A stretch of 12,585 nt of DNA from Myxococcales bacterium (GTDB lineage Bacteria; Myxococcota; Polyangia; Polyangiales; Polyangiaceae): assembly GCA_020430865.1 (NCBI GenBank), contig JAGQIY010000793.1, positions 1 through 12,585 of the forward strand. Reading direction: 5' to 3'. Positions 379 to 11,305 of this stretch are shown one piece after another. A program made the position numbers and the translations under genes. The notes under the pieces are model-generated. The model saw nothing but the letters and a program-made list of their open reading frames with translations, ran no database searches and had not been told where the DNA came from. Position 1 is the first letter of the stretch, and each line of letters begins with the position of its first letter.

Positions 379-2433
379 CTACTTGAGCGCGACGTTCATC
401 ACCACGGTGTTCGCTGCGCTGTCGTACACGCGCACGCTCAGCATGACCGGACCCTTCCCAGCGATGGGCGCCACGTCCGCGTCGAACTCCTCCTTGGCTT
501 CGTCGTAGATTCCATCCTTGGGATCGAAGGGGAACCACTCGTCAGTGCCGGCCACGGAGATCTCGATGCGCTGGATCGGACCGACCCCGTCCACGGCCGT
601 GCCGCTGATGCGTCGTCCGTTTGCCTTCAGTCCCTTGATGGCGGGTGGGGTGTTGTCGACGATGATCACGTTGCTCTCGAGGCGGTGACGCTTCACACGT
701 GACGGCGTGTTGCTGGGCGAGTCGCTCGCGGTGACGCGCACGCGGTACTTGCCCTCGGGCAGATCACCAGTTTCCCACGAGTAGCTGGTCGCGGTGACCT
801 TCTCATTTGGCTTTTCCAGCGGGTAATACGTGGTCGTGCCGACGAGGCGATACTCGAGGTGATAGTCGAGGATGTCGTTGTCGGGGTTGTCGACACGCCA
901 GGTCAGGTTGACCTTTGTGCTCGGCTTCGCAGACACCGGACCACCAGAGGACTGCATCCCGGGGTTGGTGTTGCTCTTCACCTTCACGTCGATGTTGGTG
1001 ACGACCGCTTTCAGGTTGTCCGTGATGAACGGCAGCGTGACCTCGGTGAGCTCCGCCTTCGGGTCTTTCGACCAGCGCGCTCGAACCTGAACGAAGCGAC
1101 CAGCAGGACTCTTGATGTCCCCAGGAGCCGTCATGCCAGCGCTCCAGGGGCTCCAGGAGTCGTCCGGCTCCTTCGTGTTTCCGGTACGCGTGCTGAACTC
1201 CAGGGTGCCGTCGGACTCCCACGTCATGCGGCCGAAGGTGGCTCGCAGGTTGGCGTCGAGTACTTTGCTGGTCCACACGGCGTCAGGACCGCCCACACCT
1301 CGCACCGGGTGAACGACGACGGGATCGCTTGCGATCACGTACTTGTTCTTGCCGCTCATGATGAGCTGCGAGACTTGGCGCTCCTCCACATCGGCGATCA
1401 GCACCGAGTTGTGCGCGTCGTCCACCGTGTGGATCTTGCCTTCGGCGCCGCTACCGACGTACGGCTTGCCATCGTCACCGACGGTCAGCGTCACGAAGTG
1501 CTCCGAGGAGTCCTCGAACAGCTTCTCTGGAGCTCCATCCTTGTCGAAGACGTACAGCATGCCCTTGCCGCGCGTCGTCGGCGGCGTCGGGACGGGTCCC
1601 TGGACGCTGAGCCCTGAAGAGAACGACGCGTAGCTACCGGCCGAGATCTCGTTGGCGATGGCATAAACCAGGCCCCCCGCCCCGAACGCGATGCCGCGCA
1701 CCTCGGTGGCTGCGAAGTCGTACACGACCTTGGGCGCCTTGTTGCCGCCTTCGACCTCGTACAGCTTCCCCTTCTCACCACCGCCGACGTACACCTTTCC
1801 GTCCGGAGACACGGCGACGCTCATCAGGTGCTTCTCGTCAGAGCTCATGAAGACCTGAGCCTGACCCTGCTGGGTGATGCGGTAGACCTTGCCCTCGGGG
1901 CCGGTCGCTGCATACACGACGCGCGCCTTCTCGTCGTACGCCAGCGCCCAGATGTGCTTGGCGTTCGGGAGCTTGGCCAGGGTGGTGAGCTTGCCGCGCT
2001 CCCACTTCTTCACTTCGCCGCCGGGCAGGGTGCCGAGGATCACCGCGCCGCCCCAGGCCTCGACCATCGAGGTGATGGCAAGGGTCTTGGTCTCGGCGAG
2101 CACCGTGGTCTTCGCGCCCTTCAGCGCGATCAGCTTGCCCTCGTTGCCAGTTCCCAGCAGCAGCGTGCCGTCCTTCTGGACCAGCGAGCTCCAGACCGTG
2201 TCAGCGCCCTCGATGCCGATCTTGCCCAGATTGAGGCCAGCGCGAACGCGCCCCGCGGAATCGATGGCGACCCCCTTGAGGTCTCCCCCCTCGAAGTCCG
2301 ACTTCGTGCCGAGGTCGAAGGTACGAGTGCCAACCGCGGAAGCGGTAGAGGGAAACAACGCGGAGAGCAGCAGACCAGAGGCGACCAACCCAGCGGCGTG
2401 GGCGAAACGTGAAGCGAGGCGTAGTTTTGACAT
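379..2433 (-). CDS. Secreted beta-propeller protein with C-terminal Fn3-like domain
   Basis: A 684-residue exported protein. I chose the ATG at 2433 because it gives a clean Sec signal peptide: SKLR basic end, hydrophobic core, then STASA|V with cleavage near residue 33. A GTG at 2481 would add 16 residues ahead of it. Residues about 70-380 are repeated short beta-blades, each with a pattern such as DGTLLLGTGNEGKL, DGKVYVGGGEKGKLYEV or DGKPYVGSGAEGKIHTV, as in NHL/PQQ-type propellers of six or seven blades. Residues about 380-490 are beta-rich and contain WSPWS. Residues about 500-595 look like a fibronectin type III domain (LTWRVDNPDNDILDYHLEYR, then LPEGKYRVRVTASD). The last 85 or so residues form another Ig-like strand set starting at TPPAIKGLKANG. 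No catalytic motif is seen, so binding or scaffolding in the periplasm or at the surface is most likely. It lies 118 bp downstream of the S55 peptidase gene on the same strand; the two probably form an operon and may work together. Confidence 0.88.
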   Translation of the reverse strand: MSKLRLASRFAHAAGLVASGLLLSALFPSTASAVGTRTFDLGTKSDFEGGDLKGVAIDSAGRVRAGLNLGKIGIEGADTVWSSLVQKDGTLLLGTGNEGKLIALKGAKTTVLAETKTLAITSMVEAWGGAVILGTLPGGEVKKWERGKLTTLAKLPNAKHIWALAYDEKARVVYAATGPEGKVYRITQQGQAQVFMSSDEKHLMSVAVSPDGKVYVGGGEKGKLYEVEGGNKAPKVVYDFAATEVRGIAFGAGGLVYAIANEISAGSYASFSSGLSVQGPVPTPPTTRGKGMLYVFDKDGAPEKLFEDSSEHFVTLTVGDDGKPYVGSGAEGKIHTVDDAHNSVLIADVEERQVSQLIMSGKNKYVIASDPVVVHPVRGVGGPDAVWTSKVLDANLRATFGRMTWESDGTLEFSTRTGNTKEPDDSWSPWSAGMTAPGDIKSPAGRFVQVRARWSKDPKAELTEVTLPFITDNLKAVVTNIDVKVKSNTNPGMQSSGGPVSAKPSTKVNLTWRVDNPDNDILDYHLEYRLVGTTTYYPLEKPNEKVTATSYSWETGDLPEGKYRVRVTASDSPSNTPSRVKRHRLESNVIIVDNTPPAIKGLKANGRRISGTAVDGVGPIQRIEISVAGTDEWFPFDPKDGIYDEAKEEFDADVAPIAGKGPVMLSVRVYDSAANTVVMNVALK

Positions 2434-2551
2434 GAGAATTTCTAGACGAGCGAGTAGTCGAGCCAGTTTGCCGAGGCACACGGCCTCTGTGAGTTGTCTA
2501 GGTTCGATGCTGAGAGTGCTGTGGGTGAGAACGGAAACGAGCGCTGCGGGG

Positions 2552-4435
2552 TCAGCGAATCACGGGACGAACCTTCACCTGGACGCGATCGCCTCCCACC
2601 ATGAACAGCGGGAGCGGGACGACCTGACGCACCATGGGCGAGAACGAGGATGGAGCGACGCTCGACTGGGTGGGCCGGATCATGTCCATCGCGCCGGGAG
2701 GCAGGTCTTCGGCAATCATGCCCTTGTAGGCGACGCCCCCGGTCTTCGCGCTGTAGCTCACGATCAGCGACTTGGGCGGATAGATCGGGTCTTCGAAGTT
2801 CTTGATCAGCTCACCGAGGTTGTTCGGTGGTGCCTTGATCTTGTAGTGCGTGTAGCCCGGGGAGAGGCTCAGGCTGACCGTCTGCCCCGCCAGGTCCTTC
2901 GGCAGCGGCACCTTGATCACGCGGGTGATCTCCTTGCCGGCCCAGGGCATCAACGTGAGTCGAATCCGTGCGGATTGCCCAGCGTCGACCTCGGGGTCCA
3001 GCAGCTCGGTGCCCTTCAGCATGTAGATCTCCCGCGCGAAGCGGAACTCGATCTCCATCGAGACGCCGTCGATGAAGGCATACTCCCAGGGGTTGTTCAT
3101 GATGGCGCCGATGGCGCGGACCAGGTTCGAGCCGATGAAATCACGCGGCGAGGGCGAGCCGCCCACGGAGACCCCGAAGTCTTCCAGCTCGATCTCTCCG
3201 TAGCCCTTGATCTTGAGCTTGCTGGTCGCGTTCCAGCTGACATCCTGGTTCTCGGCAGCGACGGCCTGCATCGCCGAACCCAGGGCGACGGCGACGAACG
3301 AGGGCGTCATGAACTTCTCGTGCGCGACCTCGAAGTCCCACTTCGTGTAGGGGTTGCCGGGCACGCCCTTGATCTTCAAGCTGACGGGGAACGTGGGCGC
3401 CTGGAGCGACTGATCGACGACGATCGACGCCTGACGGTCGTTCACCAGCGTGCCGATCGGTCGCACGGACTCGCCGATCTTGAACGAGCGCGAGACGCTG
3501 GCCATGAAGTGCAGGACGCGGCCGATGGTGGTGGGCAGCGCCGTATTGCCGGACATCATCATGGGGTGGCCGAAGGCCACGAGCTTGTCGCCTTCCACGC
3601 GCGTCACGGTGCCAAGCCCCATGCCGCTCATATCCCCACGGATCAACTCGACGCCGATTGCACCGCCATCCTCGAAGCGGGTCGGTGCGCCGGGCTGAAC
3701 CCCGGAGCTACCACCCGCCTGGAGGGGCTCGAGCCCCAGCGGCGCAAACAGCTCACGTGCGACTTCGATGGCGCCAGTGGTCATTCCACCGATCATGATC
3801 GGCGTCGCCACGGGTCGCACGCCCGTGGTCTCGCTGGGCGCCTTCGCGGCCTTCGCCTTGCCGATCTGCTCCGCATGCTTCTTCAGGTCGTAGTCCTGGA
3901 TCTTGCCGGCGAAGCGCTGCTGTGATCCCGTCTTGCGCAGCGCCTGCTTGGCCTTTGCCGACGGCTTCCTGGGCAGCGCGTGGAGCGGCCAGCCATCGAT
4001 CTCCTTCGGCAGGGGTCGCACCAGATCGTCGAGCATCAGACGAATCGGGGTCACGCCGGCGACCGGCTCCCTGCCGAACGTCCAGCCGTAGGCATAGGCG
4101 CCGATCATCTTGTTGTTGATGTAGATCGGGCTGCCGCTCATGCCGGCGACGACCTTGGCGACCTCGAGGCGGGGGTGCTTGGTCTTGACCAGGATCAGTT
4201 CCTGCCGGGGCTGGAAGTTCTTCAGGACGTCGATGACCTCGACCTCGAACTTCTCCGGCTTGGTGCCCTTGAACACCGTGAGCCCATAGCCCTTCATCCC
4301 CGGCTTGATGTCCTTCACGGGCATGATGTCGGGCCTCGACGTGAGCCCTTCCGCCTTCGCGGCTTGCAGACCAATGGGAAGTGGAGCCAGCAGCCCGATG
4401 ACAGCCGCCGCTGCGATGAATGTAGTCGCCCTCAA
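2552..4435 (-). CDS. Exported SpoIVB-type (S55) serine peptidase-like protein, permuted motif order
   Basis: About 627 residues from a TTG at 4435, chosen because it directly precedes a signal peptide (RATTFIAAAAVIGLL, ending near QAAKA|EG). A GTG at 4486 is an alternative start that adds 17 residues. No good Shine-Dalgarno is visible, and a five-codon ATG reading frame (4449-4432) ends on a TGA that overlaps the TTG. Residues 37-130 contain IKPGMKGYGLTVFKG and then VVAGMSGSPIYINNKMIGA, matching the GMSGSPI nucleophile motif of Bacillus SpoIVB; the Ser is residue 100. Near residues 270-297 the sequence GLGTVTRVEGDKLVAFGHPM resembles the SpoIVB histidine segment (G-GT-T then LGH), with His290. 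In SpoIVB, as I recall it, His precedes Ser; here the order is reversed. Residues 150-205 are a Lys/Ala-rich linker, and about 300 C-terminal residues are beta-rich with no recognised motif. Peptidase activity is inferred. It could process exported partners, the neighbouring propeller protein being the obvious candidate. Confidence 0.87.
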   Translation of the reverse strand: MRATTFIAAAAVIGLLAPLPIGLQAAKAEGLTSRPDIMPVKDIKPGMKGYGLTVFKGTKPEKFEVEVIDVLKNFQPRQELILVKTKHPRLEVAKVVAGMSGSPIYINNKMIGAYAYGWTFGREPVAGVTPIRLMLDDLVRPLPKEIDGWPLHALPRKPSAKAKQALRKTGSQQRFAGKIQDYDLKKHAEQIGKAKAAKAPSETTGVRPVATPIMIGGMTTGAIEVARELFAPLGLEPLQAGGSSGVQPGAPTRFEDGGAIGVELIRGDMSGMGLGTVTRVEGDKLVAFGHPMMMSGNTALPTTIGRVLHFMASVSRSFKIGESVRPIGTLVNDRQASIVVDQSLQAPTFPVSLKIKGVPGNPYTKWDFEVAHEKFMTPSFVAVALGSAMQAVAAENQDVSWNATSKLKIKGYGEIELEDFGVSVGGSPSPRDFIGSNLVRAIGAIMNNPWEYAFIDGVSMEIEFRFAREIYMLKGTELLDPEVDAGQSARIRLTLMPWAGKEITRVIKVPLPKDLAGQTVSLSLSPGYTHYKIKAPPNNLGELIKNFEDPIYPPKSLIVSYSAKTGGVAYKGMIAEDLPPGAMDMIRPTQSSVAPSSFSPMVRQVVPLPLFMVGGDRVQVKVRPVIR

Positions 4436-4707
4436 AGTCCGCTGAGCATACCACCAGGCTCGGCAGGGCAACTGGAAAGCGCACACCCTGCGCGGAAGGC
4501 CGAGCAATCGACATCGCACGGGAAGGAGCCCAGCGACCAACCGTTGCCCGAAGCCGCGTGCTCCTTGCCTCGCGCTCCGGGGGTCGAACGCGGGGAATGC
4601 TGCCGCACGCGTCGACCATTCTGCAGCCTCGACTCGCGAGGGCAGTATGGGCTACTGGTTTCCCACGCTCCTCGGCCGCGCCGGCACGGAGCCTTGGGAC
4701 GAGTGAA

Positions 4708-4950
4708 ATGGACTGGCTCATCGTGATCACCCTCGCCGTCTCTTTCGGCGCGCTGGTCACCAGCCATTTGACTCTGTGCGTCGGCCTGGCTCGACGCGAG
4801 GGGCTCTGGCGCGGCGCGCTGGCGCTGTTGCTGCCTCCGCTGGCGCTGGTGTGGGGACTGACCCATCGCCTGCGCGTGCGCAGTGCGATCTGGCTCACCT
4901 CTGCCGTCCTCTACGTGGTCGCCCTGATCGCGGCCAGCTCGGGCGCCTGA
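4708..4950 (+). CDS. Small three-helix membrane protein, unknown function
   Basis: An 80-residue protein starting at the ATG at 4708. Three hydrophobic segments are visible: residues about 3-27 (begins DWLIVITLAVSFGALV), 36-51 (GALALLLPPLALVWGL) and 59-77 (AIWLTSAVLYVVALIAAS), separated by short basic loops (ARREGLWR, HRLRVR). This suggests an inner-membrane protein. Codon choice is strongly G/C-ending, supporting a real gene. The upstream GGGACGAG is a modest ribosome-binding site. The reading frame extends upstream to 4558, but that part is not hydrophobic and looks like noncoding shadow. The TGA stop is only four bases from the stop of the convergent lipoprotein gene. I do not recognise a family. 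Confidence 0.62.
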   Translation: MDWLIVITLAVSFGALVTSHLTLCVGLARREGLWRGALALLLPPLALVWGLTHRLRVRSAIWLTSAVLYVVALIAASSGA

Positions 4951-4956
4951 GCGCTC
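4949..4956. other. Minimal convergent gene junction, palindromic stop codons
   Basis: The TGA of the small membrane protein gene and the TGA of the opposing lipoprotein gene are separated by only GCGC, so the junction reads TGAGCGCTCA, a perfect palindrome. There is no room for a dedicated terminator on either strand; transcripts from both sides must overlap into the opposite gene. Confidence 0.6.
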
Positions 4957-5677
4957 ACTTGCGCACGGGCATCTCGCGGGTCAGCGGGCGCATGCGCTGG
5001 AACCCCTCGAGCACCCAGCGATCTCGCAAGCGCTTGGCGAGCGCCTCTTCTCCGCGCCAGGGGATCGCCACCGCGTAGATCAGGCATGCGTCAGGATACG
5101 CGCCAGGATACGCGGCCCAAGCACCCGAGAAGAACCTGCGCTCGAGCCCCAGGTCCACGTAGCCGTCGACGAGCTTCACCAGCATCGGCTTGCCGCGATA
5201 CTCGCGGCGCTTGGTGCGCAACGGGCTGAGCCCCACGTCGAACGCCTCCACCTTGGGCCAGCCCCAAGCTTCGAAGCGCCTCATGCAGCTTCGGGAGTCC
5301 GTCCCCTCGCCCGCCGGAACGGGCTGGACGAACACGATGGCCATCACGTGGTGGTCGTCACCGTAGCGAAACCCGGTGAAGTGCTTGACGCCCCAGTAGC
5401 GGACCCGCTTCCAGTGCTCCCAGTCCGGAGTCGGCGCGTGGAGTTGATCGTCCTTGTCGTTGCGCTCGCCCCAGGGGGCTTCGAGCAAGCGCGTCAGCGC
5501 TGCCCGATGTGGGTCGTGAGCGTCGCCACCAGGCTCTGCCACGCTCACGGTCTGCGGCTGCGGTGGTGCGCCGGGCGGCTGACGTGCGGCGCTCTCTCCC
5601 CCACAACCCGAGGAGACCGCCCCGAGCAACCCGCAGACTCCCACCGAAGCGAGGTGGCGCAGGCGTCTCTCACTCAC
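4955..5677 (-). CDS. Putative lipoprotein, unknown function
   Basis: A 240-residue protein. The start is the GTG at 5677, preceded by GAGGA eight bases upstream. The same frame is open much further upstream but only through low-complexity sequence and the 15-bp repeats, which I do not believe is coding. The N-terminus is basic (SERRLRH), then hydrophobic (LASVGVCGLLGAV), then SSGC, an approximate lipobox with Cys25, followed by a Pro/Gln-rich linker to about residue 50. The mature part has several Trp/Tyr-rich stretches (RVRYWGVKHFTGFRYGDDHH, then CMRRFEAWGWPKVEAF and FFSGAWAAYPGAYPDACLIYAV). Two Cys (CMRR and DACL) could form a disulfide. I recognise no family. The gene is divergent from the large repeat lipoprotein gene and shares its 438-bp upstream region. 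Confidence 0.78.
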   Translation of the reverse strand: MSERRLRHLASVGVCGLLGAVSSGCGGESAARQPPGAPPQPQTVSVAEPGGDAHDPHRAALTRLLEAPWGERNDKDDQLHAPTPDWEHWKRVRYWGVKHFTGFRYGDDHHVMAIVFVQPVPAGEGTDSRSCMRRFEAWGWPKVEAFDVGLSPLRTKRREYRGKPMLVKLVDGYVDLGLERRFFSGAWAAYPGAYPDACLIYAVAIPWRGEEALAKRLRDRWVLEGFQRMRPLTREMPVRK

Positions 5678-5882
5678 GCCCGACGTCCTCACGCGCGGGA
5701 CGAACACGGACGCCGAAGGCTCTTCTGCGCGCTCCACCGCCAACAACGTAGCACTCGCATGCGATGCGCGCGGCGTTCGAGCGCGGACGCCCAGAAATCC
5801 GGCGAAGCTGAGCCAGCGGTCGCGGGGCACCGCCGTTGGACGGAGCAGGCGCGTCCCGCAATCAATGCGCCAAGCACTGCCG

Positions 5883-5982
5883 GCGCGAACCACTGCAGCG
5901 CGAACCACTGCAGCGCACACAACTGCAGCGCACACAACTGCAGCGCACACAACTGCAGCGCACACAACTGCAGCGCACACAA
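5883..5982. repeat. 15-bp minisatellite, 6.7 copies
   Basis: Two copies of GCGCGAACCACTGCA (5883-5912) are followed by four identical copies of GCGCACACAACTGCA (5913-5972) and a 10-bp partial copy (5973-5982). The two unit types differ at a few positions in the middle. Every unit junction creates the palindrome CTGCAG. A 15-bp period keeps all frames open and would encode pentapeptides (for example CSAHN on plus, CAAVV or CALQL on minus), but the array lies upstream of the supported starts of both flanking genes. The identical copies suggest recent expansion by slippage. Confidence 0.93.
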
Positions 5983-6034
5983 GGGCCCATTGGCGCATAC
6001 AAGCTGCGACGGCCTGAAGTCTCTCCCAAACGGG

Positions 6035-6062
6035 GTAGCGGAACTTTCGGAGACCCCGCTAC
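6035..6062. promoter_or_regulatory. Inverted repeat in the leader of the repeat-lipoprotein gene
   Basis: GTAGCGG (6035-6041) and CCGCTAC (6056-6062) are perfect inverted arms around a 14-base spacer, ending 53 bp before the ATG at 6116. With G-U pairs the RNA stem could extend to about 10 bp, and TTT follows at 6065-6067. It could be an operator or a leader hairpin; the sequence alone does not decide. Confidence 0.35.
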
Positions 6063-6115
6063 TCTTTGAGGTTGGGGAAACCGGCGAATGACGACCGCCG
6101 GACGAAAGGACTGTT

Positions 6116-8452
6116 ATGAACATCACCAAACTCATCAAGGTGGCGACCGCCCTCGGGGTGTTGTCACTTGCTGGGTGCCCGGGGCCAAACGGGCCTGGAC
6201 CCAACCCGCCCCCTCCGCCGAAGGCCTTCGCGGACGAAGAGTGCGATCCCAACCAGATGAACCGCGCGGAACCGCTGATCGTCGATTGGCGCGGTAACGA
6301 TCGCCTGAACCTGGAAGCCGCCATGCGCCAGGGCGTCGCGGTCGTCTCCTACAGCTGCAACGCGATCAAGCTGCTGCCGAACTGCCGAGTCAAGGGCGAC
6401 TACGGCTTCATCGGCGTCTCGACGAAGCAGGAGAAGCTGAGCCTCAAGGACCAGTCGGAGATCGTCGCCAACCTGCCGCTCACTGGCATGGCCCTGATCG
6501 CCAAGGCAGGAGGTCAGCTGAAGCAAGGCTCGGGCATCGATGTGCAGCTGATCATGGTGGGCAAGAAGCGCACCGCGATCAGCGAGGTCGAGAAGGTGAA
6601 CCTCGAGGGCGAGTGCGAGGGCGCGACCCACTTCGTCCAGGGTGCCACGGTCGGCGCCTTCATCGTGAGCACCGACTCCCAAGCCCTCGGCAGCGTGATG
6701 GCTGAGGTCATGGGCGGCGGCGGGAGCGCGGCCAGCTCGAAGTCGAAGAAGAGCGAGGTCGTCGATGGTCAGCCGGACGAGTGCGACAAGGCCGATCCGA
6801 TGTCCGACCGCCCACCGTCCCAGTGCCAGTCCGCCATGCGCCTCGACTTGGTGAAGATCTCCGGCATCGGTCAGGACGCTGCCAAGCCCAGAGAAGACGG
6901 CGATCTCGGCTCGAGTCAGACCCACGGCAAGGACACCGCCTCGTGCCCGCCTGGGCTCGTGCTGAGCGGTGGCAAGTGCACGAAGAAGACGTCCGCCGTC
7001 ACCAACTACGAGTGCAGCGGCAAGGACGAGGCGGAGTGCGCCGCCCAGTGCGGCAAGGGCAACATGGCGAGCTGCCGCCTGCAGGGTCTCTTGCAGGAAG
7101 ACGGCGGACGCTTCAAGGACGCGACGAAGAGCTATCTCGTTGCGTGCAAGGGAGGCGACGCCATCGCTTGCTCGAACGCGGGCTACATGTACCGCACCGG
7201 TCGCGGTGTGCCGAAGCAGGAGGACACGGCCGCCAAGCTCATGGCCCTCGGCTGTGAGACCGGCGATGCCCGTGGCTGCACCGATCTCGGCTACTACTAC
7301 GAGAAGGGGATCGGCGTCGCTGCGAGCAACGAGAAGGCGGCGACGCTGTACAAGCGTGGGTGTGATGGCGGCAACCTCACGGGCTGCGCCAACTACGCCT
7401 ACATGCTCAACACCGGTACCGGGGTGCAGAAGGATCACACCCAGGCCGCCGTCTACCGCCGCCGCGCATGCCTCGCAGGCAACGCGCGCTCGTGCAGCGA
7501 CCTCGGCTACCAGTACGACCGCGGGCAAGGCGTGCCCAAGGATCTGGCGATGGCCCAGTCGCTGTACGTCAAGGCGTGCGACGGGGACAACGGCATCGGC
7601 TGCATGAACGCCGGTATCACCTTCGAAGAAGGCGAGCGCGCGGACATTTCCCGCGCGGCAACCTACTATCAGAAGGGCTGCAAGCTCGAGAGCGGCACCG
7701 CCTGCCGGCTCCTGGGCGGTCTCTACCAGACCGGTCGCGGCGTGACGAAGAGCTCCGACCTCGCCAGAGCCTCCTTCAAGAAGGCGTGCGAGCTCGGGGA
7801 CTCCGAGGGCTGCAAGCTCGAGAAGACGGTGGCGACGGCGACTGCCAAGGCTGTCGCTCCGTTCAAGTCCGGCACCCGAGTGCGCGCGACCCGCAGCTAC
7901 GACGGCAAGATCGTCGCAGGCATGACCGGGACCTACTATGGAACCAACGGCAAGGAACCGCCGGCCTTCGTGATCTGGGACCAGCGCATCGGCTCCGATC
8001 CCTTCTACTACACCGACGAGGGCGCACCCGCGGGGAAGAACGACTACGCCTACTGGGTGCCCTGGGACGTGCTCGAGCGCGCCATGGCCCCTGGCATGCG
8101 CATCCGTGCCACGCGAGACTACGACGGAACCATCACCAAGGGCATGCTCGGGACCTACTACGGAACCAACGGGGGCACCCCGCCCGCGTTCGTGCTCTGG
8201 GACAAGCGCATCGGCGCCAACCCAGTCTACTACGACAAGGAAGGCGCTCCGCGCGGAAAGAACGACCACGCATACTGGGTGCCCTGGGACACCATCGAGG
8301 AGGTCCTCAAGCCAGGTACGCGCATCGTCGCCCTCAAGGACTACGACGGCAAGATCCGCAAGGGCATGGAAGGTGTCTACTGGGGCACCAACGGCAAGAA
8401 CCCGCCAGCCTTCGTCGTCTGGGACAAGGACCTCGGCTCGAGTTCCTTCTAA
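6116..8452 (+). CDS. Sel1-repeat lipoprotein with 74-aa C-terminal repeats, cut short by TAA
   Basis: A 778-residue product as it reads, starting at the ATG at 6116 with AAAGGA five bases upstream. Residues 1-21 are a lipoprotein signal (MNITKLIKVATALGVL, then SLAGC with lipidated Cys21), followed by a Pro-rich linker. Residues about 38-250 form a domain I do not recognise, containing LNLEAAMRQGVAVVSYSC and LLPNCRVKGDYGF. Residues about 307-573 are seven Cys-bearing Sel1-like repeats (pattern G-GCTDLGYYYEKGIGV, ending in AC or GC) that should stack as an alpha-helical solenoid with disulfides, as in Helicobacter Hcp proteins; such repeats bind other proteins. From residue 586 come the 74-residue repeats. 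The frame stops at TAA 8450-8452 in the middle of repeat 3, but repeats 4 and 5 continue in the same frame to 8980; the intact gene would encode 953 to 954 residues. It probably acts at the outer membrane or in the periplasm. Nothing visible defines its ligand. Confidence 0.88.
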   Translation: MNITKLIKVATALGVLSLAGCPGPNGPGPNPPPPPKAFADEECDPNQMNRAEPLIVDWRGNDRLNLEAAMRQGVAVVSYSCNAIKLLPNCRVKGDYGFIGVSTKQEKLSLKDQSEIVANLPLTGMALIAKAGGQLKQGSGIDVQLIMVGKKRTAISEVEKVNLEGECEGATHFVQGATVGAFIVSTDSQALGSVMAEVMGGGGSAASSKSKKSEVVDGQPDECDKADPMSDRPPSQCQSAMRLDLVKISGIGQDAAKPREDGDLGSSQTHGKDTASCPPGLVLSGGKCTKKTSAVTNYECSGKDEAECAAQCGKGNMASCRLQGLLQEDGGRFKDATKSYLVACKGGDAIACSNAGYMYRTGRGVPKQEDTAAKLMALGCETGDARGCTDLGYYYEKGIGVAASNEKAATLYKRGCDGGNLTGCANYAYMLNTGTGVQKDHTQAAVYRRRACLAGNARSCSDLGYQYDRGQGVPKDLAMAQSLYVKACDGDNGIGCMNAGITFEEGERADISRAATYYQKGCKLESGTACRLLGGLYQTGRGVTKSSDLARASFKKACELGDSEGCKLEKTVATATAKAVAPFKSGTRVRATRSYDGKIVAGMTGTYYGTNGKEPPAFVIWDQRIGSDPFYYTDEGAPAGKNDYAYWVPWDVLERAMAPGMRIRATRDYDGTITKGMLGTYYGTNGGTPPAFVLWDKRIGANPVYYDKEGAPRGKNDHAYWVPWDTIEEVLKPGTRIVALKDYDGKIRKGMEGVYWGTNGKNPPAFVVWDKDLGSSSF
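7034..7834 (+). repeat. Sel1-like repeat region, seven Cys-paired units
   Basis: The encoded units are about 34-38 residues, each having a Cys near the start (for example ARGCTDLG, LTGCANYA, ARSCSDLG) and one at the end (KRGC, RRAC, VKAC, QKGC, KKAC), with the central Tyr-x-x-G-x-GV signature in most. Unit 6 has a degenerate centre (EEGERAD). A partial eighth unit (GDSEGCKLEK) closes the array. Boundaries are by eye. Confidence 0.8.
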
Positions 8453-8977
8453 TACAGCGACGAAGGAGCTGGGCCCGGAAAGAACTCTCACGCTTACTGG
8501 GTGCCCTGGGACGTGATCGACGAGGCGCTGTCCAGCGGAGTGCGCGTCATCGCGACCAAGAACTACGACAGCAAGATCAAGCGCGGCATGATGGGCACGT
8601 ACTACGGCACCAACGGCAAGAGCCCGCCAGCCTTCGTGCTCTGGGATGACTTCATCGGCTCGAATCCGGTCTACTACACCGGCGGCGGCGCTCCTCCGGG
8701 TCGCGATGGCTACGCCTACTGGGTGGAGTGGGACGTGATCCGTCAGGCGTTCATCCCGGGACGCAAGGTCAAGGCCGTGCGCAGCTACGACGGCAAGATC
8801 AACAAGGGGGACATGGGAGTGTACTGGGGCACCAACGGCAAGAACCCGCCGGCCTTCGTGCTCTGGAACAAGACCATCGGCGCAAACCCCGTGTACTACA
8901 GCGACGAAGGCGCACCCCGCGGCAAGAACGCGAACGCCTACTGGGTGCCCTGGAACGTGATCCAGCCTCTGAATTAC
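7871..8977 (+). repeat. Five tandem 222-bp (74-aa) repeats
   Basis: Units: 7871-8092, 8093-8314, 8315-8536, 8537-8758 and 8759-8977 (the last is one codon shorter). The shared pattern is G-x-[RK]-[VI]-x-A-x-x-x-YD-x-KI-x-x-G-x-x-G-[TV]-Y-[YW]-GTNG-x-x-PPAFV-x-W-x-x-x-[IL]-G, then YY, then G-A-x-x-G-[KR], then AYWV-x-W-[DN]-V. The spacing is fixed with no indels. Conserved Gly, Trp and aromatic positions with beta-prone segments suggest a small SH3-like barrel per unit; that fold is inference. The third unit carries TAA at unit position 46, where the others have Tyr. Confidence 0.92.
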
Positions 8978-8980
8978 TGA
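8453..8980 (+). pseudogene. Severed C-terminal part of the repeat lipoprotein (rest of repeat 3, repeats 4-5)
   Basis: This stretch is in the same frame as the gene starting at 6116, has no further stop until TGA at 8978-8980, and encodes the remainder of repeat 3 plus complete repeats 4 and 5 with all conserved positions kept. It lacks its own signal peptide, and its first possible start, a GTG at 8501, is an internal Val of the conserved YWVPW motif with no ribosome-binding site, so an independent gene is unlikely. The lack of decay shows that the stop at 8450 is recent, is read through, or is a sequence error. Confidence 0.8.
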
Positions 8981-9000
8981 GGCGCTGAGTCACATGAACC

Positions 9001-9032
9001 GAGCGGCGGGCCAGGCGACTGGCTCGCCGTTT
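9001..9032 (+). terminator. Intrinsic terminator hairpin after the repeat lipoprotein gene
   Basis: CGGCGGGCCAG (9004-9014) pairs with CTGGCTCGCCG (9019-9029) as an 11-bp stem with one G-U pair and a GCGA loop (GNRA type), extendable by three pairs at the base, ending in TTT (9030-9032). It begins 20 bp after the TGA at 8980, not after the TAA at 8452, so it marks the end of the original full-length gene. Confidence 0.65.
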
Positions 9033-9112
9033 CACGTTGCCTCCCCTCTCCCCCAACCCTGTCGTTCGATTCCCCGCGGCAACTGCTTGCGCCTGCGGGC
9101 GGGCGACGCGGG

Positions 9113-9529
9113 CTAGGTCTCGAGCGGACGCTGCGGTGCTTGCTGGGGGTGAGGAACCGCGCAGCCCGCAGCGTCGCAACGTCCGGTCCACTTGAGGCGG
9201 TTCTTCGCGAAGCGCTCGTAGGCGGCGTCGAGCCCCTGGCGGACCCCAGGGAGACGGGTCAGCGCGACCAGCGGCGACAGCCCGACGGCGGCGTAGAGCC
9301 TCCTGAACACCTCGACCCCCGTGATCCACTCGCCTCCAGGCAGCCTCCCGTGGATCTTGTCCATCAGGGTCACGTAGTCGGTGCCCAGCGCCTGGGCGTC
9401 GAACTCCGGCGCTGCGATGTCGGTGAAGCGGATGCGCTGCTTGCGATCGAGCTTCTGGAGCATGTGGATCTCACGCACACACAGTGGGCAGTCACCATCG
9501 AAGAAGACCTCGACTTCGTAGTCGCTCAT
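9113..9529 (-). CDS. DCC-family thiol-disulfide oxidoreductase (DUF393)
   Basis: A 138-residue protein with its start at the ATG at 9529, which puts the hallmark motif near the N-terminus as in the family. The motif [14 protein letters not shown] (residues 8-21) contains the conserved Asp-x-x-Cys-x-x-Cys (Asp11, Cys14, Cys17), a thioredoxin-like redox pair. The middle ([20 protein letters not shown]) and the Cys-containing tail ([15 protein letters not shown]) also match the family pattern. No signal peptide, so probably cytoplasmic. Substrates of this family are poorly known. No clear Shine-Dalgarno precedes the ATG; a longer start at 9643 adds a basic, unlikely extension. It is divergent from the thioesterase gene, with 123 bp between them. 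Confidence 0.9.
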
Positions 9530-9652
9530 GAGTGGGCTGTGAGACCCGGCGAGGGCAATGTAAAGATCCGGGAGCGGGCGGCTGCATTTCCGCAGCGCTG
9601 GCCGGCGCAGGCGGCGCTTTACACGCCAACCGGACTCGGGCACCTAGGCTCG

Positions 9653-10090
9653 ATGCTGCCGTCATTGATCAGCGCCGAAGCCTTCACTCGACTAGTCGAC
9701 GACCACATGCACATGGGCGAGGACTTCCGCTTCAGTGTGCTCGAGCTGGAGCGCGGGCGCGCCCGCATCGGTCTGCAGGCCTCGGAGAAGTTCCGGCGCC
9801 CCGGAGGCACGGTCAGCGGACCGACGCTGTTCACGCTCGCAGACGTCACGCTGTGGGCTGCGGTGCTGTCGGAGATAGGCATCCAGGCGATGGCCGTCAC
9901 GAGCGACATGACGCTCCACTTCTTGCGCAAGCCACGCCTCGGCACCCTGGTGTGCGAGGCGCGCATCCTCAAGGTGGGCCGGCGCCTGGTGCACGGCGAC
10001 ATCCGAATCTGGCTCGCGGACGAGCCGGCGGTGGTGTGCCACGCGACAGGGACCTACGCGCGACCGGAGGCTGAGGCAACCGCGCCTTGA
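9653..10090 (+). CDS. PaaI-family (hotdog-fold) acyl-CoA thioesterase
   Basis: A 145-residue protein with its start at the ATG at 9653, giving the usual length for this family. Residues 50-66 (RPGGTVSGPTLFTLADV) correspond to the hotdog-helix segment, with Gly51-Gly52 and a likely catalytic Asp64. TSDMTLHFLRKPRLGTLVCEARILKVGRR-like sequence (from about residue 84) is the typical strand pair of PaaI-type enzymes. Expected reaction: hydrolysis of acyl- or aryl-CoA thioesters in the cytoplasm, probably as a dimer or tetramer; the substrate cannot be read from the sequence. Only a weak AGG lies upstream. The frame is open further upstream to 9140 but overlaps the opposing gene and lacks family similarity. 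Confidence 0.9.
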   Translation: MLPSLISAEAFTRLVDDHMHMGEDFRFSVLELERGRARIGLQASEKFRRPGGTVSGPTLFTLADVTLWAAVLSEIGIQAMAVTSDMTLHFLRKPRLGTLVCEARILKVGRRLVHGDIRIWLADEPAVVCHATGTYARPEAEATAP

Positions 10091-10122
10091 GGCAGACTTG
10101 CGGCACGTCGCGGCGGGCGGAG

Positions 10123-10144
10123 GGCGCGGAGTCATCACCGCGCC
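10123..10144. terminator. GC-rich hairpin between convergent genes
   Basis: GGCGCGG (10123-10129) and CCGCGCC (10138-10144) form a perfect 7-bp stem around an 8-base loop. It sits 32 bp past the thioesterase stop and 27 bp past the DUF362 gene stop, so it could end transcription from both sides. No T-run follows on either strand, so it is only a candidate. Confidence 0.35.
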
Positions 10145-10171
10145 GCCAACTCATGCCACGGGGCAATCAGC

Positions 10172-11305
10172 TCAGATGGTGACGCTCTTGACCCGGATCT
10201 TGTTCAAGTCGAACACACCGAGCCCCAGCTCGCCGGCGGTCTTGATGTACTTCGGCTCGCGCTTGACGTCGGCCAGCGACTTCATCCCGTTCTCCTTGCG
10301 GGCGGCGTCGATCACCTTCCAGCCGTAGCGGTCCATCGCCACCGGATCGGTGGCCACGTAGACGGCGCCATGAGGAATGCGCTTGCGCGGATCGCGGTCC
10401 AGCGGTCCGCGATCGTAGATGATCTTGAAGGCGTCGGTGATGTGCAAGCGCACTCGACTGGTCACGATCGGGTGGTTGTAGAGCATCGCGATCTGGGGAC
10501 TCGCCAGGTGCGCGTGGTGGTCCTCTGGGTTGTTCACGTTGCCGTGGGTGATGTTCTTCAGCGTCCCCGTGTAGCCGCAGATCCCGTGATCCTTCATCTG
10601 GGTCATGTCGATCACGGCCGTCGCTTGCAGCAGCTGGGTCGAGAACTTGGTCTTGATGCCCTGGTAGATGGTGATCTCCGGCATCTTGTGGTCGAGGTTG
10701 TTGTGAGTCGCCGTCTTCACGCCTTCGGGTAGATCGTAACCCTTCACGCTGACGCGCGTGCCCATCAGGAAAGTCGGGAACTGCTCGTAGACGGTTATCT
10801 TTTCCGCAGGGACACCGACACCGATGACGGCCTCGACCACCGGCTTGATCAGCTCGAAATTGACGGCCATCGTGTAGCCCTTCTGGCCCGCGATGCCGTT
10901 GACCTTGATCGCCACGGTGTCGTCCTTGTGGACGAAGCGCTTCATCGCCTCCACCAGGTTCGACTTGCCCGTGAACTCGGTCATCGCCCGCTCGAGCAGC
11001 TCCTTGGCCACATCGGCCTTCGGCCAGAGCTGGTTTGGCTGCATGAAGGAAGCAAAGTCGCCCTTCTTCTCGACCTTGACGATCTTTCCGGGCACCGCCA
11101 TGGGACGAAATCCCTTGGGCGGCTTGGCGGTCAGAGTCTTGGCCACGGCTTCGTCCGAGAGACCGGTCAGCATCGCCGCGCTGCCGAGCGCAATCGATCC
11201 CTTCATCAGGTCGCGGCGGCTGACGCCCGGGCCTCGCACCTTCTCAGCAGCTTCCCGAACGGACGCCCTCAGCTCCTTGGCGATCGAATCACGCTCACTT
11301 GCCAT
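10172..11305 (-). CDS. Tat-exported DUF362 domain protein
   Basis: A 377-residue protein. The ATG at 11305 has a near-perfect Shine-Dalgarno (GGAGG, five bases before it). Residues 29-36 (SRRDLMKG) followed by the moderately hydrophobic SIALGSAAMLTGL form a twin-arginine signal, implying folded export. The DUF362 pattern is clear: DDTVAIKVNGIAG and then NFELIKPVVEAVIGVGVP, a central MTQMKDHGICGYTGTLKNITHG, and VYVATDPVAMDRYGWKVID near the C-terminus. DUF362 proteins are of uncertain function. Some carry iron-sulfur clusters, but no ferredoxin Cys motif is present here; only one Cys (in HGICG) is seen in the mature part. The gene lies 78 bp downstream of the formylglycine-enzyme-like lipoprotein gene on the same strand; a weak promoter (TTTGCC and GATACT, 16 bp apart) might lie between. 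Confidence 0.92.
   Translation of the reverse strand: MASERDSIAKELRASVREAAEKVRGPGVSRRDLMKGSIALGSAAMLTGLSDEAVAKTLTAKPPKGFRPMAVPGKIVKVEKKGDFASFMQPNQLWPKADVAKELLERAMTEFTGKSNLVEAMKRFVHKDDTVAIKVNGIAGQKGYTMAVNFELIKPVVEAVIGVGVPAEKITVYEQFPTFLMGTRVSVKGYDLPEGVKTATHNNLDHKMPEITIYQGIKTKFSTQLLQATAVIDMTQMKDHGICGYTGTLKNITHGNVNNPEDHHAHLASPQIAMLYNHPIVTSRVRLHITDAFKIIYDRGPLDRDPRKRIPHGAVYVATDPVAMDRYGWKVIDAARKENGMKSLADVKREPKYIKTAGELGLGVFDLNKIRVKSVTI

Follow-up and report, generated by a model that had tools for sequence, protein, structure and literature searches.

A probable recent nonsense mutation in a Sel1-repeat gene with CPH-like repeats from a Polyangiaceae bacterium

A gene for a Sel1-repeat protein is split by one in-frame TAA in the window, that is, the whole stretch of 12,585 nucleotides analysed here (contig JAGQIY010000793.1 of a Myxococcales bacterium, Polyangiaceae). 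The most likely reading, held with moderate confidence, is that a single, very recent nonsense mutation yields a truncated protein of 778 residues. The mutation would have arisen very recently, either in the lineage or in the sequenced strain. The TAA base is presumably real and termination at UAA-U presumably efficient; translation would then end there and leave a 778-residue, probably lipid-anchored protein. This protein would retain the Sel1 repeats and two complete CPH-like repeats, stop two thirds of the way into the third, and lose repeats 4 and 5 together with the conserved C-terminus. The partial third repeat is probably unable to close the small β-barrel of such a domain, since the last two strands of the structure model built for repeat 5 would be missing from it.

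Layout of the interrupted gene

A frame scan found TAA 8450–8452 to be the only internal stop of the frame that runs from ATG 6116 to TGA 8978–8980. The sequence-only reading of this DNA had described an open frame at 6116–8980 split once by a TAA, and this description holds, the figure of 955 triplets being reached with both stops counted. As read from the ORF list and Pfam, the interrupted gene (6116–8452, plus strand) encodes a Sel1-repeat protein of 778 aa with a lipoprotein-type N-terminus. In translation, the 21 N-terminal residues (6116–6178, plus strand) are hydrophobic and carry LAGC at residues 18–21, a motif spotted by eye that we take to resemble a lipobox. From its sequence, the 778-aa product is a putative lipoprotein. 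Its Sel1 match in Pfam (PF08238) scores 97.6 bits against a cut-off of 30.7, with an E-value of 3.1e-28 over 5 stretches.

The premature TAA on the plus strand is codon 779 of the window copy. It is followed by T, giving UAAU in the message, and the triplet directly after it is TAC. Beyond it lies an orphaned 3′ part of 175 codons (8453–8977, plus strand), of which the conservation in orthologue alignments is still coding-like. The distal stop TGA (8978–8980, plus strand) comes at the place matching the end of the ORFs in two related genomes, L001 and L002. From base composition alone, 175 open codons 3′ of the TAA have a probability of 0.006, and that this openness exceeds chance is settled by homology, the amino-acid identity 3′ of the stop being 77–91% without gaps.

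An independent downstream gene of 159 aa starting at GTG 8501 is thought unlikely, and its product would be without an N-terminal signal. The start candidates 3′ of the TAA have no evident ribosome-binding sequence when inspected by eye, which also argues against such a gene. A protein search with the 175-aa distal piece, in which candidate lengths were restricted to 0.55–1.75 times the query, matched just one of 63 candidates: P0121, which shares 59% identity but is another protein, with two repeats. Whether a nonsense allele or an error, the stop matters chiefly for annotation, which should show one interrupted gene here instead of two proteins, one of 778 aa and the other of 159 aa beginning at GTG 8501. 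P0121 itself is encoded on a 275 kb contig; it is 215 aa long, has a lipoprotein-like N-terminus and carries only two such repeats.

Past the distal stop, a GC-rich, terminator-like hairpin of 14 pairs with a short T run is found at 9001–9032 (plus strand). Its fold is far more stable than those of shuffled sequences (z −4.4, with 0 of 200 shuffles reaching its stability), and the L001 hairpin at the matching place folds alike (z −4.5; again 0 of 200). A hairpin terminator following the distal stop had been claimed from the sequence. The hairpin is real, but the T run that ends its 3′ arm is short (three T in the window, four in L001), and 9001–9032 is missing from the output of the consensus terminator scan. 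The hairpin is in keeping with a transcription unit that spans the gene at full length.

Upstream of the gene, an array of a 15-base unit in tandem (GCGCACACAACTGCA-like, spacing 15) occupies 5883–5987, between the divergent gene at 4955–5998 (minus strand) and ATG 6116. The first codons of this minus-strand ORF run through the array, and the true start codon may therefore be an internal one. Its counterpart in L001, at 4042–4842, has 266 aa against 347 in the window. Elsewhere in the window, a minus-strand gene (2552–4540) matches the SpoIVB peptidase S55 domain (PF05580) in part, at 38.2 bits where the cut-off is 25.

Orthologues and constraint beyond the stop

Three proteins found by protein search extend past the stop position and cover 95–100% of the query: P0001 (953 aa, 90% identity), P0002 (956 aa, 77% identity) and P0003 (917 aa with a later start, 77% identity). 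Among the best 120 of 153 matched proteins, only these three align near full length; the others (P0004–P0120) cover 24–77% and were left out. P0001 stands for a cluster with 11 member sequences, and the orthologue count rests on P0001 itself. A scan of species genomes added two loci, a 948-aa ORF in L001, a Polyangia metagenome-assembled genome, and a 951-aa ORF in L002, a Polyangiaceae metagenome-assembled genome. P0003 and the L002 ORF differ at 1 of 916 compared columns and are the same gene, and four distinct orthologues are therefore counted. All four have Tyr at the column of the stop, as part of a Tyr-Tyr pair, and none has a stop there. The possibility raised earlier that orthologues all end at this TAA was checked and came out negative, every one of the four continuing past 8452 with Tyr at the column. 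The TAA at 8452 is thus ruled out as the normal end of the gene.

The relationship extends beyond the gene. L001 aligns to the window at 890–4484, 4706–5593, 6018–9569 and 9635–10375, with 79–85% DNA identity. The distal piece matched 2 of 144 genomes (E 0.001), namely those of L001 and L002; the 144 are relatives of the L002 genome, with the L001 and L002 genomes included. The loci labelled L003–L007 are stretches of the L001 and L002 genes. At megablast sensitivity, nothing in a collection of plasmids matched the window.

The downstream repeats had been said to show no decay, and no clear sign of it was seen: the part after the TAA is free of gaps and of further internal stops, and constraint on it has not clearly slackened in the lineage of the window. 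In a six-sequence alignment, none of the 175 downstream columns contains a gap. Between the window and L001, dN/dS is 0.076 for the whole part 5′ of the stop, 0.115 for the repeats within that part and 0.171 for the part 3′ of the stop. The corresponding values are 0.222, 0.252 and 0.330 between the window and L002, and 0.229, 0.229 and 0.233 between L001 and L002, both of which are intact. For the window and L002, dS goes from 0.73 in the repeats before the stop to 0.53 after it while dN goes from 0.184 to 0.175, so the rise in dN/dS after the stop in this pair is due to the lower dS and not to dN.

The window branch carries 7 changes in the 175 codons after the stop, against 4 in 196 for the repeats before it (p = 0.36) and 14 in 772 for everything upstream (p = 0.088), the unresolved changes in this comparison numbering 9, 10 and 23, respectively. 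The branch of the intact L001 has 7 of 175, 6 of 196 and 24 of 772 (p = 0.78 and 0.49 for the two comparisons with the part after the stop). The denominators here are 175, 196 and 772, and the three-way comparison of the upstream part is a few codons shorter owing to gaps. When all six sequences are compared, the window alone is changed at 3 of the 175 columns after the stop, at 2 of the 196 in the preceding repeats and at 4 of the 538 upstream of the repeats; for L001 the counts are 5, 4 and 7.

Some counts speak against a young nonsense mutation, among them the window-branch changes after the stop and upstream of it (p = 0.088) and the higher dN/dS after the stop in both pairs with the window. 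In addition, amino-acid differences between the window and L001 are denser after the stop, at 23 of 175 versus 61 of 772 before it (Fisher p = 0.038). Those between the window and P0001 are even (15 of 175 after versus 71 of 777 before, p = 0.88). When the window, L001 and P0001 are compared, the intact L001 has 14 unique changes among the 175 positions after the stop and the window has 9. Judged by these alignments, most of the raised change downstream is not specific to the window. As a crude bound, a period free of constraint would make up at most 6–17% of the window branch since L001, the range arising from how unresolved changes are assigned.

An old pseudogene is rejected: of the further decay expected downstream, neither indels nor more stops are present, and the excess of changes on the window branch is not significant; at most, the interruption is very young. 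The 175 codons without gaps or clear loss of constraint point to a young interruption. The suggestion of a very recent nonsense mutation, made from the sequence, fits both the intact orthologues and the lack of clear decay downstream.

Error, truncation, recoding and readthrough

The same two observations also fit the second option offered by the sequence-only reading, a sequence error. A sequencing or assembly error, or a base from a minority strain in a metagenome consensus, would mean that the true gene is intact; this is the second likeliest explanation, possible but well short of probable. One change in an otherwise conserved gene, with no clear decay, is the pattern that an error would leave. 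Moreover, the two named relatives come from metagenome assemblies, and the window may share that origin. Against this, there is neither a frameshift nor a second internal stop in the frame of the gene. The seven further ORFs inspected across the window are open, and their lengths, where compared by eye, equal or exceed those of the L001 counterparts. The otherwise clean frame and the open ORFs argue, weakly, for good base quality.

If the base is real, the shortened product may still serve. The number of repeats could be variable, two complete repeats could suffice and the loss could be tolerated, as two-repeat proteins such as P0121, with its 215 aa and lipoprotein-like N-terminus, do exist. 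Nevertheless, the four distinct orthologues retain five repeats and a near-identical C-terminus, and the truncation leaves a partial third repeat, so that a functional truncated protein is regarded as improbable. Since a real mutation could end in just such a tolerated shortening, the likelihoods given to these readings are not strictly exclusive.

Alternatively, TAA could be decoded as an amino acid throughout the organism. Of the seven further ORFs inspected, 2 end in TAG, 5 in TGA and none in TAA, as such a change of code would have it, yet TAA stops are rare in GC-rich genomes, and few genes of GC-rich species end in UAA (PMC5289835, in the excerpted text). Moreover, ORF 4042–4842 of the close relative L001 does terminate with TAA. 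No tRNA genes were found in the window. A code change is hardly credible on this evidence.

Readthrough of the stop, whether programmed or tolerated, is very unlikely, though somewhat less so than a change of code. UAA would be decoded at a low rate, giving mostly the 778-aa short form with two and two thirds repeats and little of a rarer, five-repeat long form. The constraint retained downstream of the stop speaks for such a mechanism, and readthrough has been proposed for in-frame stops in bacterial genes, which the excerpted text of PMC7918605 describes as widespread and as lying in genes with dN/dS below 1. The same text states that these stops tend to last only a short evolutionary time, and in the window the downstream constraint is explained by the recency of the stop. 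The stop is private to the window, being present in 0 of 4 distinct orthologues. In addition, UAA followed by U is described in the excerpted text of PMC5289835 as the strongest and most efficient bacterial termination signal, with UAA as the least leaky stop. The strength of this signal and the restriction of the stop to the window make programmed readthrough unlikely. Folded without pseudoknots, the RNA at 8445–8520 is no more stable than its shuffles (z +1.26), 183 of 200 of which fold at least as well, and Rfam gave no family at the gathering score anywhere in the window. The earlier proposal of readthrough producing short and long forms is therefore unsupported by the orthologues, by the stop signal UAAU or by the fold. 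If readthrough of UAAU in a bacterial chromosomal gene were true, it would contradict the accepted strength of this stop signal.

The CPH-like repeats and comparison with known systems

Five CPH-like repeats on the plus strand make up the C-terminal part of the full frame. Repeats 1 (7862–8083) and 2 (8084–8305) have 74 aa each, and residues 654–698, which match PF11515 best within the 778-aa piece, lie mostly in repeat 2. Repeat 3 (8306–8527) is the one broken by the stop; repeat 4 (8528–8749) and repeat 5 with the C-terminus (8750–8977) follow, the last having a structure model with a mean pLDDT of 82.6. Tyr-Tyr is present at the matching site in the other four repeats of the window, as had been noticed from the sequence, and the TAA replaces the first Tyr of the pair. 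The site given then was right, but the numbering 46–47 belongs to another register; in the 74-residue unit with repeat 3 starting at 8306, the break falls at position 49. What remains downstream had been put at two and a half repeats, which has to be corrected to about 2.3, namely the last 25 residues of repeat 3 followed by repeats 4 and 5.

Tyr-Tyr also stands at the matching site in all five repeats of L001 and all five of L002. That the stop falls exactly at a conserved Tyr is true but says little. The five repeats of L001 offer 154 single-base routes to a stop, of which Tyr codons account for 60 and the Tyr-Tyr pair for 20; those of L002 offer 134, with 62 and 20, respectively. The pair would be hit about once in eight times if the routes were equally likely, and the position of the stop thus requires no special explanation. 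Gene conversion between repeats was considered as a source of the TAA and rejected, since no stop is found at this site in the other repeats of the window or in the ten of L001 and L002.

The repeats score 23.7 and 22.4 bits against PF11515 (CPH), under the Pfam curated cut-off of 25, and for this reason they are called only CPH-like. A profile of 15 repeat sequences matches the CPH structures 2jng (E 3e-5) and 2juf (8e-5); the first row of this search is a designed ankyrin protein (5.5e-6) with no single stretch passing, and it was taken as a chance match. Similarly, a Foldseek search with the repeat-5 model gave 2jng and 2juf as the first two matches, with TM scores of 0.61–0.71. A search of genomes with PF11515 matched 0 of 2, and the controls likewise 0 of 14, which makes this search uninformative. 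Judged by titles only, no paper was found on bacterial CPH repeats or on this gene. These repeats (7862–8977), which are like a eukaryotic domain, sit in a bacterial lipoprotein-like protein.

By sequence profile and by the fold of the repeat-5 model, the C-terminal repeats of the window appear to resemble the CPH domain of Cullin-7 and PARC (PF11515; 2jng, 2juf). They differ from it in being apparently bacterial, arranged in tandem in five copies and below the cut-off in Pfam, and the comparison carries no information on binding of the p53 type. Closer at hand are the Sel1-repeat proteins of Polyangia, for instance P0003 ('sel1 repeat family protein [Polyangiaceae bacterium]'), which share the same architecture with 76–92% identity before the stop. 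Those proteins are intact at 948–956 aa (or 917 aa in P0003, whose record starts later), whereas the window copy is interrupted at codon 779. As for the interruption, the in-frame stops of Belinky et al. 2021 (PMC7918605) likewise involve, in the excerpted text, a single stop in a frame under purifying selection and are evolutionarily young. The large-scale set described there consists of stops common to orthologues of at least two species, whereas the stop of the window is shared by none of its four distinct orthologues; what is seen in the window is compatible with either a young polymorphism or an artefact.
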